A stretch of DNA of 64,000 bases, from the NCBI RefSeq assembly GCF_003144315.1, contig NZ_MPDK01000003.1:1-64000 (forward strand), written 5' to 3'. Both the position numbers and the translations under genes were made by a program. Positions 52,379 to 57,915 of this stretch are shown here, in pieces. Under the pieces are notes generated by a model. The model ran no database searches. It was given only the letters and a program-made list of their open reading frames with translations, and was not told the origin of the DNA. Origin of the DNA: Sulfoacidibacillus thermotolerans (GTDB lineage Bacteria > Bacillota > Bacilli > Alicyclobacillales > SLC66). Each line of letters starts with the position of its first letter. Positions within the stretch are counted from its first letter, which is position 1.

Positions 52379-53179
52379 ATGTCGATGGATTTGACACCCT
52401 TGCAGGTTGTGCTCGCTATCCTCTCAGGTGGCGTAGTGGGCTTCGCATTAGGGCTAATTGGCGGGGGCGGATCTATTCTTGCCGTTCCTTTGTTATTATA
52501 CGTCGTGGGTTTACACAATGCTCACTTGGTGATTGGAACTACCGCACTGGCGGTTGCTGTAAACGCTTATCTGAATTTAATACCACACGCACGTGTGGGA
52601 AATGTTCGCTGGAAAGCGGCGATTGCGTTTGCGATTCCAGGTGCGATTGGTGCTTATATCGGATCAACGCTTGGAAAGGATATGGATGGGAAAGCACTTT
52701 TGTTTTTGTTTGCAATTTTAATGTTGGTAGTTGCTGTCTTGATGCTTAAACCAAAGAAAAATACTGATTCCAGCGACATAGAACAGCAGATTCAGGTTAA
52801 AATGGGAAAAGTGATTCCCGCTGGGCTCATTGTTGGGATTGTCTCTGGATTCTTTGGAATCGGTGGTGGATTCCTGATTGTTCCTGGACTTTTGTTTTCA
52901 ACAGGAATGCCGATGATCTGGGCGATCGGCAGTTCTTTGTTTTCAGTTGGCACGTTTGGATTGACGACGGCAGTAAACTATGCGATGAGTGGGCTTGTTG
53001 ATTGGCTTGTCGTACTTGAATATGTCGGCGGCGGTATCGTCGGGGGCGTTCTTGGCGCGATGCTTGCCACGCGCTTAAGCAAAAGTAAACGTTTATTGAA
53101 TTACGTGTTTTCGTCGATCATCATCGTCGTTGCAATTTACATGTTGTATGTGAATTTTAGCGCATTCCATCATCTATAA
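52379..53179 (+). CDS. TauE/SafE family exporter
   Basis: TauE/SafE proteins export sulfite, sulfoacetate or related sulfur compounds. The 266-aa protein has about eight hydrophobic segments and the family's glycine-rich entries GFALGLIGGGGSILAVP and GFFGIGGGFLIVPGL, one in each half. ATG 52379 follows AAAGAGGGGGAAG; the frame is open back to 52271. Since the persulfide dioxygenase reaction would make sulfite, sulfite export is the likely role here, supported by the shared dyad upstream. Confidence 0.88.
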   Translation: MSMDLTPLQVVLAILSGGVVGFALGLIGGGGSILAVPLLLYVVGLHNAHLVIGTTALAVAVNAYLNLIPHARVGNVRWKAAIAFAIPGAIGAYIGSTLGKDMDGKALLFLFAILMLVVAVLMLKPKKNTDSSDIEQQIQVKMGKVIPAGLIVGIVSGFFGIGGGFLIVPGLLFSTGMPMIWAIGSSLFSVGTFGLTTAVNYAMSGLVDWLVVLEYVGGGIVGGVLGAMLATRLSKSKRLLNYVFSSIIIVVAIYMLYVNFSAFHHL

Positions 53180-53237
53180 ACTCTCTGGTAGGAAAAGGGT
53201 TGCGCGATTGCGATGCGCGGGGAAAGGGGGGATCTAG

Positions 53238-54296
53238 ATGAATATCTTTTTTGAACGGGACTGGTCACAGTTAACGGCTTTCACTGCTTGCGCAGGGTGA
53301 GCAGCAAAACTAGGTCCGGGGGACCTCGCAGCGATAATGGAACCACTTTTGCAGTCCCAGCGAGTCGATGAGCGGTTGTTAATCGGACTTGATCGACCGG
53401 ATGATGCGGCGGTTTATCAAGTGCATGAAGACCTTGCGCTCGTTTTTACGGCAGACTTTATCACGCCAGTTGTTGATGACGCATATACGTATGGAGCGAT
53501 TGCGGCGATCAATTCGCTAAGTGATGTTTATGCGATGGGCGGGCGGCCGGTCCTCGCATTAAACCTTGTAGGGTTCCCCAAAGACATGCCAAAGCAAATC
53601 GCAACTGAAATTATGCGTGGCGGTTTTGAGCGTGTACAAGAAGCGGGTGCGCTCGTTGTGGGAGGCCATACGGTTGAAGATGAGGAGCCAAAATTCGGGC
53701 TTGCAGTCGTTGGATTTGTTCATCCAAAGCATATTTTGCGTAAAGGGGCAGCTATGCCGGGTGATGTGATTTTATTGACCAAGTCGATTGGTACAGGGCT
53801 TTTAGCGAAGTGTGGTAAGCATGCGGTGATTGCAAAAGAGCATCTGGAGACTGCCTCGCGCAGTATGAGTAAAAGCAATCGCGTCGCTTCAGAAATAGCT
53901 GTACGACATGGTGTGCTAGCTGCCACAGATGTGACGGGTTTTGCATTACTCGGACATTTGATGGAAATGGCGACACTTGCCCAAGTGGGAATTGAACTTT
54001 CCTACAAATCCATCCCCATATTACCAGGTGCATTGGCGCAAGCGCGTGATGGAAGCTATTGGCCGACAAAGACATGGGAAAACATGGAGCATTTTGGTGA
54101 GTCTATCGAGTTTGCCTCCTCTTTAGCAGCATATCAACAGAGTTTGCTTTTTTCACCAGAAACTTCTGGGGGACTCATCTTAACGGTGCCGTCAGAAAAA
54201 GTAGATGCGATCATGGCAGATTTTAAAGCACAGGGAGAATCTGCACAGGTGATTGGACGTGTAGTCAGTGGGCGCGGGTTTGTCGTTACAGAATGA
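53238..54296 (+). CDS. selD: Selenide water dikinase with selenocysteine (in-frame UGA)
   Basis: SelD makes selenophosphate from selenide and ATP for selenocysteine and selenouridine synthesis. Reading from ATG 53238 (AAAGGGGGG 6 bases upstream), the N-terminus is MNIFFERDWSQL, and then TACAG-Sec-AAKLGPGDL, where the UGA at 53298-53300 is codon 21. This matches the family motif SACAG-C/U-AAK exactly, including the catalytic Lys. The rest (FTADFITPVVDD, SDVYAMGGRP, VVGGHTVED, GFALLGHLMEM) is typical. The product is 352 aa. Starting after the UGA (ATG 53337) would remove the active site. Confidence 0.93.
53298..53326 (+). promoter_or_regulatory. Selenocysteine codon and SECIS-like hairpin of selD
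   Basis: The UGA at 53298-53300 is followed 11 bases later by AGGTCC-GGG-GGACCT (53312-53326), a 6-bp stem whose loop starts with G, 18 bases after the UGA. Distance and loop fit bacterial SECIS rules. Confidence 0.75.
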
Positions 54297-54320
54297 GTTT
54301 TAAAAGGATCATAGGAAGAG

Positions 54321-54362
54321 AAAATCGCGGGAGATCAGTGACAATCTGATCTCCCGCGATTT
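54321..54362. terminator. Bidirectional terminator between selD and the glutaredoxin gene
   Basis: AAATCGCGGGAGATCAG (54322-54338) and CTGATCTCCCGCGATTT (54346-54362) form a perfect 17-bp stem with a 7-base loop between convergent genes. The minus-strand side has a TTTT run. Confidence 0.9.
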
Positions 54363-54364
54363 AG

Positions 54365-54604
54365 TTAGGATCTTTTTAGCGCATCAGTATAAGCGCGCTC
54401 ATCAAATCCGACGAGGATTTGCTCATGAATGACAGTCACAGGGACGGTCATTGCATCTGTCAATTGCCTCATTTCTTGTCGGTACTTGTTGTTAAAAAGA
54501 ATGTTGCGCTCCTCAAAGGGGACTCCTTTCGCCGAAAGGAACCGTTTTGCACGGGCGCAGTGTGGTCACAGAGGAACCACATACATAATGACTGCATCCA
54601 TCAT
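54365..54604 (-). CDS. Glutaredoxin-like selenoprotein (Sec-P-H-C, in-frame UGA)
   Basis: The 79-residue product reads MMDAVIMYVVPL-Sec-PHCARAKRFL and continues SAKGVPFEERNI, then TVPVTVI and ILVGFDERAYTDAL. This is a glutaredoxin/NrdH-like thiol-redox protein in which the usual CPYC is Sec-P-H-C. The UGA is at 54568-54566. The cis-Pro motif TVPV and the GFD motif are both intact. The ATG overlaps the stop of the upstream class II aldolase gene (TAATG), so translation is coupled. It ends just before the shared terminator with selD. The likely role is reduction of disulfides or peroxide/persulfide; the partner is unknown. Confidence 0.87.
54524..54540 (-). promoter_or_regulatory. SECIS-like hairpin of the glutaredoxin gene
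   Basis: On the minus strand TCCTTTC-GGC-GAAAGGA is a perfect 7-bp stem with a GGC loop; the loop G is 33 bases after the UGA (54568-54566). This is within the bacterial SECIS range. A weaker 3-bp hairpin, CCG-TGCAAAA-CGG, lies nearer the UGA. Confidence 0.65.
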
Positions 54605-55281
54605 TAAGCCATCACTTTCTCAGCAAATTGGCGCATGCGTTCCACAACTTGCGCAAAGGCTGCATCTGGCAACGGTTTTTCGCCACCGATCAAGCGCGCA
54701 TTGAGGATTAACTCTGCTGCTTCATCCAGTGTAGTCACTATTTGTGCAGTGTCAAGGGGTGTTTTCCCGAAAGCAAGTAAACCGTGATTGGCTAACATCA
54801 AGGCTGGGAGATGCGGATGAGATTTTACGATTTCAATAATTCCGCCGACTGACTCAGCGGATCCGCGTGGTGCCCATGGAACGACAGGAATCGGTTCGGT
54901 AATACCAAATCGTAACAGGGGTTCATAAACAACAGGGATCGGTTGGTGTGCAATCGCAAAGGTTGTGACATGTGGCGCATGATTGTGAATCACACCGCCT
55001 ACAGACGGGCGTTCTCGATAGACAGCCGCATGCATTTCAATCACTTCTGCGAGGACTGGCTCTACATGGCCTTCGACAACGGTTCCGTCAAGATTGACAA
55101 TCGCAAAGTCCTCTTTTTCTAATTTGGCAATACTGCCGCCACGCGTAATAACCATCTGATCTTCGCCAAGTCGAGCAGAAAGGTTGGCGTGTTCCCCTTT
55201 AAACATCACACCAGCTTGAAATAATTTGTGAGCGACTTGGACAAGCTCTTCGCGCAATTGATCAGCTGTTTGCTTCCTCAT
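54604..55281 (-). CDS. Class II aldolase/adducin family protein
   Basis: The family includes fuculose-phosphate aldolase, ribulose-phosphate epimerase and methylthioribulose-phosphate dehydratase; all bind zinc by three His. The 225-aa protein has the pairs VIHNHAPHV and MLANHGLLAFG as ligands and a catalytic-type Glu in LAEVIEMHAA. ATG 55281 has AGGAGG 9 bases upstream; TTG 55287 is too close to it. The exact substrate cannot be assigned. A methionine-salvage role is possible in a sulfur-rich neighbourhood, but no other salvage gene is present. Confidence 0.85.
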   Translation of the reverse strand: MRKQTADQLREELVQVAHKLFQAGVMFKGEHANLSARLGEDQMVITRGGSIAKLEKEDFAIVNLDGTVVEGHVEPVLAEVIEMHAAVYRERPSVGGVIHNHAPHVTTFAIAHQPIPVVYEPLLRFGITEPIPVVPWAPRGSAESVGGIIEIVKSHPHLPALMLANHGLLAFGKTPLDTAQIVTTLDEAAELILNARLIGGEKPLPDAAFAQVVERMRQFAEKVMA

Positions 55282-55306
55282 TTGCAATGTCCTCCTTTAG
55301 AGTGAG

Positions 55307-55666
55307 TTACATAATGATAGGGGTAAACCCTTGTTTGATATACTCTGCGATACTTGGATGACCATTGATTGCGTGGAGCGCTGTGATTCCAGACTGCAAT
55401 ACAGGGTCAGCAACGCCCATTGCGGTCGTGCAATATTCACAAACGCCAGTAATGACTCCTGCTTCTTTTAGTTGTTGGTACAATTTGTGAGTTGGACGAT
55501 CAGTGTTTGTGATAAATCCTGCAAGCGATTTTACGCCAGCACCGTCAAAGATCATTTGTACTTGAATGCCAGCGTCATGCAGTTCTTTTCCATACATGAG
55601 TGCGTGCGCAGCTTTTGCACCTTCTGTGTCAGAGGCGTGAACGATAATGATAAATTTTTGATTCAA
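55307..55666 (-). CDS. DsrE-like sulfur-relay family protein
   Basis: DsrE/TusD-like proteins carry sulfur on a cysteine. The 119-aa product has KFIIIVHASDTEGAKAAHAL near the N-terminus, IQVQMIFDGAGVKSL in the middle and a CEYC pair (about residue 80) in VITGVCEYCTTAMG. TTG 55666 is preferred because AAAGGATGAG lies just upstream, whereas the ATG at 55675 overlaps that site; the frame is open back to 55735. It lies 25 bases before the aldolase gene on the same strand, so the DsrE-like, aldolase and glutaredoxin genes may form one unit. Confidence 0.82.
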   Translation of the reverse strand: MNQKFIIIVHASDTEGAKAAHALMYGKELHDAGIQVQMIFDGAGVKSLAGFITNTDRPTHKLYQQLKEAGVITGVCEYCTTAMGVADPVLQSGITALHAINGHPSIAEYIKQGFTPIIM

Positions 55667-55899
55667 AATTCTCATCCTTTCGTAGATCATGATGATAAAA
55701 TCATTGTACTGATAATAACAGTATATGTCAAGCAAGATTCCGAGAACTCATTTACAGTATGAAGGATTCGATACAAACTATCCAGGAAGAGATTTTCTGG
55801 AAAACTATTTTTTTCAGGAGGAAAATATCAGCAAAATAGCGAATAAAACGAATCAGAGAAGAAGCATGGCTTTTTTAAAATAGGAAAAGGGGTGTTGAT

Positions 55900-57915
55900 T
55901 TGAAAAGTCAAAAAAAGTCTAGTGTTGTCTTGCTGAGTCTGCTGTTTACTTTGCTTACTGCGCCAGTAGCAATGGCGCAATCCACTGTGCCTTCTCAGTC
56001 ATCGCAACCTATGCTTGTAGCGCTCGGTGATTCCATCACCTTTGGATATAACCTTGGCAATAATAAAGCACCTTCTAAAGAAGCGTTCCCGTATTTAATA
56101 GGAAAAGCAAAAGGGTATCGTGTCACTGACCTAGGAGTACCGGGGTTTACATCCGAAGATCTGCTCAAAGCATTAAATTCTCCACAGTATACAAAACAGA
56201 TTCAAAAAGCGAGTGTGATTACACTCGATATTGGCAGCAATGACATTTTACAGCCAGCCATCAAGGATGGATTACTTACTACAGGTAATTCTAATGGATC
56301 ACTTACAATTGCACAAAAAATTCAATTTGCAAATGCAATTACATTGTTTGGGCAAAATCTTCATTCGATTCTTTTGAGAATTCATTCGTTGAATCCACAT
56401 GCACGGTTGGTCTTGTATAACATTTATGATCCGATCCCGCTTGCTTTGCACCCGTTGCGTAGGACGAGTGAAAAACTAATTCAAGCAGAAAATGTAGTGA
56501 TCAGCGCAGAAGCTAAACAAGAGGGAATTTCTGTAGCAAATGCGTATCAGGCGTTCAATTTGCATTTGGCGACGTATGTAAAGCCTGGCCATGTACATCC
56601 GACTCTTGCTGGCCAAGAGGAACTCGCAAACTTAGGCTTAACAATCTTATCAAGGCCTATTCCGGTTCCAGATTATCAAGACAAGGTGAATTTCGTCTTT
56701 GATTTTCTAGCGTTGCTAGGAGAAAGTCCTGATGCTACAGGACACTCCCCATTTAAAGATGTTCCTACGCATTCTTACTTTTGGGGATATGTGCATAAAG
56801 CCTTAGATCTGCACTTGCTTTCCCCACAATCAGCCACAATCTTTGGAGCTGCTTCCGATGTGACGCGCAGTGAAGCGGCTGACATCGCGGTGCGTTTTCT
56901 TCACATCCATCTGCAAAAAGGTGAAAGTGCATTGACGTGGGCGAATCGCACTGGATTATTTGCGGATTTAGGCGATTTACCAGATATGACCTTGCGCGAT
57001 GAAGTATTTTTTACGGGCAGAGTCGCTGCTCTTGAAACGCACACAGAACAAGTTTTGCCTGCTACTTGGCATATGACAACAGCTGCGGCAGATATCTTGC
57101 GCGAAGCCCTGGCCAAGAGTTCAACGGCTCCCTATATGCAAATGAATGCAAGTTTGATTTTAAAGTTTGGCGTTACATTGACCCAAGCAGGAAAACAGGA
57201 TCAAGCGATACAAAGTGTCGTACAGGATATGCAGAATCTTGTTCACATGAACATTCAAACGGAAAAAGGATTTGTGGATGGGAAAAAAGCACTCCATGTC
57301 GTGGTTACGGTGCTTCCAAGTGCTCCTGCTGATTCAACGGCCATGCCTGCGATCAATCAAGTGGAAGAGTATCTAATAAATGGAAAACTGTATTTAAACG
57401 CAGGCTCTGGGTGGGAAGTTGTTCCTGGATTGCAGAACATGCAGAAATTACTATCCGAACAAATGGGGGGCGCAGCGTTTGCGACGGGAATGCTCAAAGA
57501 TATGAACGCGTTGCAGATTGCAGATGGCTATCAATTTGCTGGAAGTTTAAATACAAAACAGCTAGATCAAATGCTAAAAGGTATTCTGTCAACTTTTCCC
57601 TTCCAAGTTGATCAAACAGGAGGAGCATCTTCCTCTGCAACAGAACAATGGCTGTCTACAGTATTGAAAGATATGGAGACGCGGATTGTATTTACAGTTT
57701 TAAAAACTTCAGATGGATTTGAAATGCGTGCGCAGCAGATGCATGCAACAATGCGCTTGCCAGTAGCTAGTTTGCTCGCATTAGGTGGTCAAAATACAAG
57801 TGCAAAGGCGGAATTAGAAAAAGATATTCAAGATTTTACAATCGATGAGCATCTTACCGCTGCAATGACTTACAACCGTACTCCGATAATGGTACCGAGT
57901 CAGTTCACAGCATAA
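55900..57915 (+). CDS. Secreted SGNH/GDSL hydrolase-like protein with SLH-like region
   Basis: A signal peptide (SSVVLLSLLFTLLTAPVAMA) precedes an SGNH domain with the nucleophile in ALGDSITFGYN (S45), the LDIGSNDIL block and a C-terminal HVHPTLAG. The usual D-x-x-H pair appears as G-H-V-H, so the catalytic Asp seems missing. Residues about 275-400 resemble S-layer-homology repeats (FKDVPTHSYFWGYVHKALDL, VTRSEAADIAVRFL). The last 270 residues match no family I can name. The product is 671 aa. TTG 55900 follows AAAAGGGGTG. An acyl-ester hydrolase at the cell surface is the likely class. Confidence 0.85.
   Translation: MKSQKKSSVVLLSLLFTLLTAPVAMAQSTVPSQSSQPMLVALGDSITFGYNLGNNKAPSKEAFPYLIGKAKGYRVTDLGVPGFTSEDLLKALNSPQYTKQIQKASVITLDIGSNDILQPAIKDGLLTTGNSNGSLTIAQKIQFANAITLFGQNLHSILLRIHSLNPHARLVLYNIYDPIPLALHPLRRTSEKLIQAENVVISAEAKQEGISVANAYQAFNLHLATYVKPGHVHPTLAGQEELANLGLTILSRPIPVPDYQDKVNFVFDFLALLGESPDATGHSPFKDVPTHSYFWGYVHKALDLHLLSPQSATIFGAASDVTRSEAADIAVRFLHIHLQKGESALTWANRTGLFADLGDLPDMTLRDEVFFTGRVAALETHTEQVLPATWHMTTAAADILREALAKSSTAPYMQMNASLILKFGVTLTQAGKQDQAIQSVVQDMQNLVHMNIQTEKGFVDGKKALHVVVTVLPSAPADSTAMPAINQVEEYLINGKLYLNAGSGWEVVPGLQNMQKLLSEQMGGAAFATGMLKDMNALQIADGYQFAGSLNTKQLDQMLKGILSTFPFQVDQTGGASSSATEQWLSTVLKDMETRIVFTVLKTSDGFEMRAQQMHATMRLPVASLLALGGQNTSAKAELEKDIQDFTIDEHLTAAMTYNRTPIMVPSQFTA

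Follow-up and report, generated by a model that had tools for sequence, protein, structure and literature searches.

Glutaredoxins are marked by a C/U-x-x-C/S active site and a cis-Pro TVP motif. The closest known protein to the one described here is glutaredoxin 1 (Grx1) of Clostridium oremlandii, which, judging from the entry titles, is the 'cGrx1' of PDB entries 7c10 and 7c12; it has the same fold and the same pairing of a selenocysteine (Sec) at position 13 with a cysteine at position 16. PMC4479559 gives these residues as U13 and C16 (U13C/C16S numbering) and reports that Grx reduces MsrA in that organism. Sec-containing glutaredoxins of Geobacter sulfurreducens and Alkaliphilus metalliredigenes are listed in a table of PMC1794560 and a review table of PMC13188914, and the U/CXXC/S active-site pattern is also given in the latter. 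Seleno-glutaredoxins are thus already known as a protein type, with UxxC forms in both tables, and the likeness of the Geobacter and Alkaliphilus proteins to ours is one of class (UxxC). For bacterial SECIS (bSECIS) elements, PMC13188914 sets limits of 3–9 nt for the loop and 4–16 bp for the stem, with a G in the first two loop positions, a UGA-to-loop spacing of 16–37 nt, and an MFE of at most −7.5 kcal/mol.

Here we describe a glutaredoxin locus of Sulfoacidibacillus thermotolerans that lies in the window, a stretch of 64,000 nucleotides at the start of contig NZ_MPDK01000003.1. Its product differs from C. oremlandii Grx1 in the signature around the Sec residue, which here is VPLUPxC. Our literature search found no paper on a seleno-glutaredoxin from the order of this organism or from Desulfosporosinus, subscription papers being mostly beyond its reach.

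A glutaredoxin frame interrupted by UGA

The minus-strand frame at 54365–54604, here called grx, is predicted from the frame itself, its Pfam match and its orthologues to encode a 79-residue seleno-glutaredoxin with Sec13 and Cys16. Read from 54604 to 54365, it translates as MMDAVIMYVVPLUPHCARAKRFLSAKGVPFEERNILFNNKYRQEMRQLTDAMTVPVTVIHEQILVGFDERAYTDALKRS followed by a stop codon; within VPL-U-PHC the C/U-x-x-C/S active site takes the form UPHC. The UGA at 54566–54568 (minus strand) is the only TGA of the frame and occupies the position of the first active-site Cys, as the UGA/Cys pair in homologues also indicates; the preliminary description had placed it there, and its observation that TVPV (containing the cis-Pro TVP) and GFD are intact downstream is borne out by the full translation. 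The ATG of grx shares one base with the stop codon of the upstream gene (TAATG), and a second in-frame ATG is present at 54601.

The product matches Pfam Glutaredoxin (PF00462) over residues 5–62 with an E-value of 5.8e-18 and 65.3 bits against a cut-off of 22.9. In a scan of NCBIfam no selenoprotein or glutaredoxin model scores it above its cut-off; the two that score best, for this product as for five further VPL-type members, are TIGR02196 (YruB-family glutaredoxin-like; 70.9 bits for grx, below the curated 88.55) and NF041212 (Uxx-star; 55.3 bits, below the curated 66). An AlphaFold2 model built from 6 sequences has a pLDDT of 88.2, and its best PDB match by Foldseek is cGrx1 (7c10), with a TM score of 0.83 and 40% identity over 72 columns; the fold matches of the model are of the thioredoxin type.

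Selenocysteine machinery and the UGA and Cys forms

The genome is a draft of 2.87 Mb in 135 contigs and is 99.86% complete. It contains the full set of SelA (585 bits, cut-off 268), SelB (368 bits, cut-off 242), SelD and tRNA-Sec expected for a bacterial selenoprotein; the tRNA-Sec model has 18 matches, a single one of which exceeds the Rfam cut-off (65 bits versus 47), and ARAGORN calls the same locus SeC with anticodon tca. The preliminary description had proposed a search for selA, selB and tRNA-Sec and had named the absence of the last two as evidence against a selenoprotein, an absence that is not the case here. SelD is encoded twice, and both selD genes carry a single in-frame TGA, located at the active site. 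One is convergent with grx at 53238–54296 on the plus strand (TIGR00476, 342 bits), and had been noted before as a neighbour, although its own active-site UGA at 53298–53300 (ACAGUAAKLGP) was missed. Because this UGA extends the frame, selD probably starts at 53238 rather than at 53337 as in the ORF list; it ends at a UGA that is used as an ordinary stop. It carries a SECIS-type hairpin (AGGTCC-GGG-GGACCT, 53312–53326, plus strand) whose loop lies 17 nt downstream of the UGA. The form GGTCC-GGN-GGACC at this spacing is present at 27 of the 36 distinct selD sites in the genomes compared, and for 23 of these 27 the minimum-energy fold computed over 45 nt contains the hairpin; the remaining 9 sites, among them the second selD of this genome, deviate from this form. 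The second selD (G000:C24:39787–40713) is of the usual GUGCK type, and the window selD is of a CAGUAAK type with a Cys three residues before the Sec and none after it; the 36 sites divide into 25 GCK, 6 AAK and 5 ACK.

All three glutaredoxin-profile matches in this genome contain one TGA, located at the active site. The two besides grx are L057 (G000:C48:126202–126414, minus strand) and L111 (7634–7873 of G000:C103), with active sites UGKC and UQKC and SECIS-type hairpins approximately 22–23 and 19–20 nt after the UGA, respectively.

We searched 61 genomes of the window's order, its own included, and found a match at an E-value of 0.001 or better in 29 and a close orthologue (at least 70 bits) in 19. 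Sixteen of these 19 have UGA and three (G049, G052 and G053) have Cys at exactly codon 13, so that the comparison of homologues proposed earlier yields both members of the pair. SelB is above its cut-off in 29 of the 61 genomes, in 16/16 of those with the UGA form and in 2/3 of those with the Cys form; the sole close orthologue from a genome with no SelB match (G052) has Cys. A second order, that of G184 (73 genomes), gives 32 matches in 29 genomes, and the 29 rows read comprise 17 UGA and 12 Cys forms; one further row (G338, UGA) was read and two lacking the locus were left out. Records with the UGA form include WH4.bin32 and SKS1.bin126 (both 'Bacillota bacterium') and three Desulfosporosinus records, and an Alicyclobacillus mengziensis record has the Cys form. 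In the orthologues read, the in-frame UGA stands against Cys codons only.

Among 18 UGA orthologues compared over codons 29–66, with the decayed copy L109 and L108 (a repeat of L098) dropped, pairwise differences at codon positions 1, 2 and 3 are 0.364, 0.215 and 0.634. Because of this pattern we conclude that the predicted protein downstream of the UGA is under purifying selection and that the frame is translated past the UGA. Among the relatives, L042, L043 and L044 have Cys glutaredoxin-like domains that run into a longer frame (448–459 and 431 aa), and the continuation in L042 resembles thioredoxin reductase by eye.

We consider it highly improbable that grx is a pseudogene truncated at the UGA, or a Cys glutaredoxin gene with a miscalled base: the genome is indeed a draft of many contigs, and one of the 16 UGA copies, L109 (G031:C64:4008–4226), contains an in-frame TAG as well as the TGA and looks decayed, but the same UGA is present in 16/19 orthologues of the order and 17/29 rows of another, and both protein-type constraint after the UGA and constraint on an RNA hairpin (see below) argue against it. 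Fifteen further genomes of the order share the UGA, as do members of a second order, which makes a sequencing error in particular very unlikely. Nor do we give more credence to the insertion of another residue such as Trp or Cys, whether through a variant tRNA or through near-cognate read-through, which would likewise keep the downstream frame under selection; against it are the Sec machinery in this genome, the exclusive pairing of UGA with Cys codons, the presence of SelB in every genome with the UGA form, the SECIS-type hairpin, and the use of UGA as an ordinary stop, as in the neighbouring selD.

We therefore read the UGA at codon 13 as very probably specifying Sec, and predict that the product incorporates selenium. 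With little doubt, and from sequence comparisons, we propose that grx encodes a glutaredoxin-fold selenoprotein in which SelB and tRNA-Sec would decode UGA13 under the direction of a stem-loop within the coding sequence whose GGN loop lies 32 nt downstream of the UGA. The hidden selenoprotein of the preliminary description is thus supported by the machinery, by the Cys and Sec homologues and by a SECIS-type hairpin under selection.

The SECIS-type hairpin and a difference in register

The hairpin is located at 54523–54541 on the minus strand and has the form TTCCTTTC-GGC-GAAAGGAG, with 7 bp plus a U-G pair. Its 7-bp core (TCCTTTC-GGC-GAAAGGA, 54540–54524) has a stem that starts 25 nt and a loop that starts 32 nt after the UGA; a 7-bp hairpin with a G-rich loop had been reported 33 bases after the UGA, a distance that fits the loop but not the stem. 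The loop (GGC), loop G, stem (7 bp) and spacing (32 nt) are within the bSECIS limits of PMC13188914, and the bare hairpin, folding at −7.1 to −7.3 kcal/mol, is just short of the −7.5 given there. The 57-nt stretch from the UGA folds at −13.1 kcal/mol, and in several orthologues (e.g. L096, L023, L050 and L051) the minimum-energy fold of this stretch does not include the hairpin. Two features distinguish grx from the bSECIS model: its spacing of 32 nt compares with approximately 16–23 nt (by eye) in the four other Sec genes of this genome, and a second hairpin is present in the spacer.

Codon usage is frozen precisely where the hairpin is encoded. In 36 columns of the 18 UGA rows, 14 rows or more agree on a degenerate amino acid, and four of these columns use a single codon, namely codons 22, 23, 24 and 26 (F22 TTC in 18/18, L23 CTT in 18/18, S24 TCG in 16/16 and K26 AAA in 17/17), whereas none of the 32 other comparable columns does so; the remaining two rows have Ala GCG at codon 24. 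These four codons build TTCCTTTC-GGN-GAAAGGA. For covariation we used 30 distinct UGA rows, the 8-pair hairpin and 500 shuffles. In this set 92.5% of cells are paired, compared with 42.5–75.8% when the hairpin is slid by 1–3 columns, and double-change cells number 13, where shuffling gives 3.9 on average and reaches 13 in 0/500 cases, although most of the double changes stem from one group of four related genomes. Pairs changed on both sides (3 versus 2.1) and further pair types (7 versus 6.1) are each reached by 145/500 shuffles. In G490, G491, G457 and G458 a rebuilt stem, TTCTTCGA/TCGAGGAA, is located at the same place and encodes other amino acids; these genomes being related, it may reflect one event.

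All five core pairs are kept in 35/37 Sec rows versus 8/15 Cys rows, counts that include repeats of one record and related species; with each hairpin sequence taken once, the numbers are 17/18 versus 6/13 (Fisher p 0.004). The alignments thus indicate selection on the RNA itself to keep the SECIS-type hairpin. One Cys form, L186 (G487), can still form the whole hairpin, as would be expected of a recent Sec-to-Cys change.

The second hairpin (CCGT-GCAAA-ACGG, 54542–54554, minus strand) is small, starts 11 nt after the UGA and covaries within the VPL group; its role is conjectural. It is quite unlikely that this mini-hairpin, with its loop 15 nt after the UGA, is the functional SECIS and that the frozen hairpin serves something else. 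In its favour are its closeness to the UGA, a loop with G at its start (30/30 rows at column 19), and covariation: 17 double-change cells versus 5.1 in shuffles, a number reached in 0/500, and 8 further pair types versus 5.3, reached by 2/500. But just 78.3% of its cells pair, its basal pair is broken in 11/30 rows, pairs changed on both sides (3 versus 1.9) are reached by 79/500 shuffles, and its codons are not frozen; moreover, RNAalifold on the 30 rows predicts the downstream hairpin and no other, and the GGN loop of the 27/36 selD sites is the loop type of the downstream hairpin. We retain the downstream hairpin as the candidate SECIS.

A second group of seleno-glutaredoxins provides a comparison. 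In a sample of 398 genomes of the phylum, 49 matched at an E-value of 1e-15, and we read 29 loci besides the window. Other Bacillota contain a TPT-U-PxC group, for which we used 18 Sec and 5 Cys rows; it belongs to the same fold family and has the same U/C position as the VPL-type grx. In its 18 Sec rows, just one codon occurs in 3 of the 23 conserved degenerate columns (V19 GTG, E21 GAG and L23 CTT), and K20 is AAA in 17/18; the corresponding hairpin, GTGAAAG-AGTTT-CTTTC, has its loop 22–23 nt after the UGA. Its SECIS register is therefore 9–10 nt off that of the VPL group, with the shared CTT arm paired to the opposite side. At the locus L125 (G184) a VPL-type site is followed 974 bases later by a second UPYC reading with a TPT-type hairpin. 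The tree of 24 Grx rows, in which 3 of 21 inner branches are well supported, does not resolve how many times Sec and Cys were exchanged, or whether the TPT group stands to the VPL group as sister or as ancestor.

We tentatively suggest, as a real possibility that falls somewhat short of our favour, that the SECIS changes register within a conserved coding sequence by swapping partners and that the VPL mini-hairpin makes for a two-hairpin bacterial SECIS. The codon-23 CTT arm would pair upstream with GTG-AAA-GAG in the TPT group or downstream with NNN-AAA-GGN in the VPL group, and the mini-hairpin may bring the VPL SECIS back to approximately 17 nt, as in the selD of the same genome. The register difference between the VPL and TPT groups and the covarying small hairpin in the longer spacer appear to be new.

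Gene neighbourhood and predicted function

Directly upstream of grx is a class II aldolase/adducin-type gene (54604–55287, minus strand; ATG at 55281, with the start as in the ORF list), and a DsrE/DsrF-like gene of uncertain start (55307–55666, minus strand) heads the same-strand run. A promoter-like site at 55731–55703 (minus strand) matches at 11 of 12 positions, in a scan that gave 6 sites in this region versus 4.5 in shuffles. Between the convergent grx and selD genes an inverted repeat (AAATCGCGGGAGATCAG/CTGATCTCCCGCGATTT, 54322–54362), found by eye, is read as a putative terminator common to both; it is absent from the list of a terminator-like scan. An Rfam scan of 53000–56000 at E-values up to 10 found no family describing a SECIS, as the only matches are two weak snoRNA-like ones (24.2 and 16.3 bits against gathering scores of 54 and 60). 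Adjacency of grx and selD is not general: among 36 loci compared, grx adjoins a selD of the window type only in G002 and the window, and in G001 grx lies elsewhere.

We commit to the prediction that the product is a Sec-based disulfide/persulfide reductase. Judging from the fold, the active site and the relatives, the Sec13 selenolate would attack a partner protein at a disulfide, sulfenate or persulfide, after which the mixed bond would be resolved by Cys16, as in UxxC and CxxC glutaredoxins. Electrons would presumably come from bacillithiol or an enzyme like thioredoxin reductase, and not from glutathione; bacillithiol is a likely low-molecular thiol, because BshA is present in the genome (528 bits). 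At a related locus, L104 (5262–7994), a seleno-glutaredoxin is found near a rhodanese, a rhodanese/metallo-beta-lactamase protein and an FAD protein resembling thioredoxin reductase.

Two more specific roles can be weighed. It is unlikely that the protein is chiefly an electron donor to methionine sulfoxide reductase in the manner of C. oremlandii Grx1, although that protein has the closest structure and, according to PMC4479559, MsrA is reduced by Grx in that species. There is one MsrA in this genome, but its gene is on another contig (C114) and has no in-frame stop, and a search of this genome for a Sec-MsrA partner found none, so that the pairing of Sec-Grx with Sec-MsrA is absent here, a further difference from C. 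oremlandii. Somewhat doubtful, and a weak lead, is a role in sulfur or persulfide traffic, with a sulfur-trafficking protein as the possible substrate. Genes found within 3 kb are DsrE (the window, L093 and L099), rhodanese (L054, L099, L104 and L109), CcdA-like plus TlpA-like genes (L105 and L106) and, at L102, a class V aminotransferase resembling cysteine desulfurases, and 9/21 near segments are matched versus 7/60 control segments, a count biased by the choice of queries from the near segments. Against this, 12 of the 21 near segments have no such neighbours, and G001 has the DsrE-aldolase-selD run without grx. Our prediction of a Sec-based reductase stands apart from the choice of substrate.

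A standard gene caller would stop after 12 codons of grx, so that a redox protein would be overlooked, and with it some of the selenium use in this lineage. Related genomes supply both UGA and Cys orthologues (37 and 15 rows), accompanied by two SECIS registers, so that natural sequences can test the spacing tolerance of SelB and the movement of SECIS elements. It is the difference in register that deserves attention, the read-through signal lying further downstream here than in related genes.
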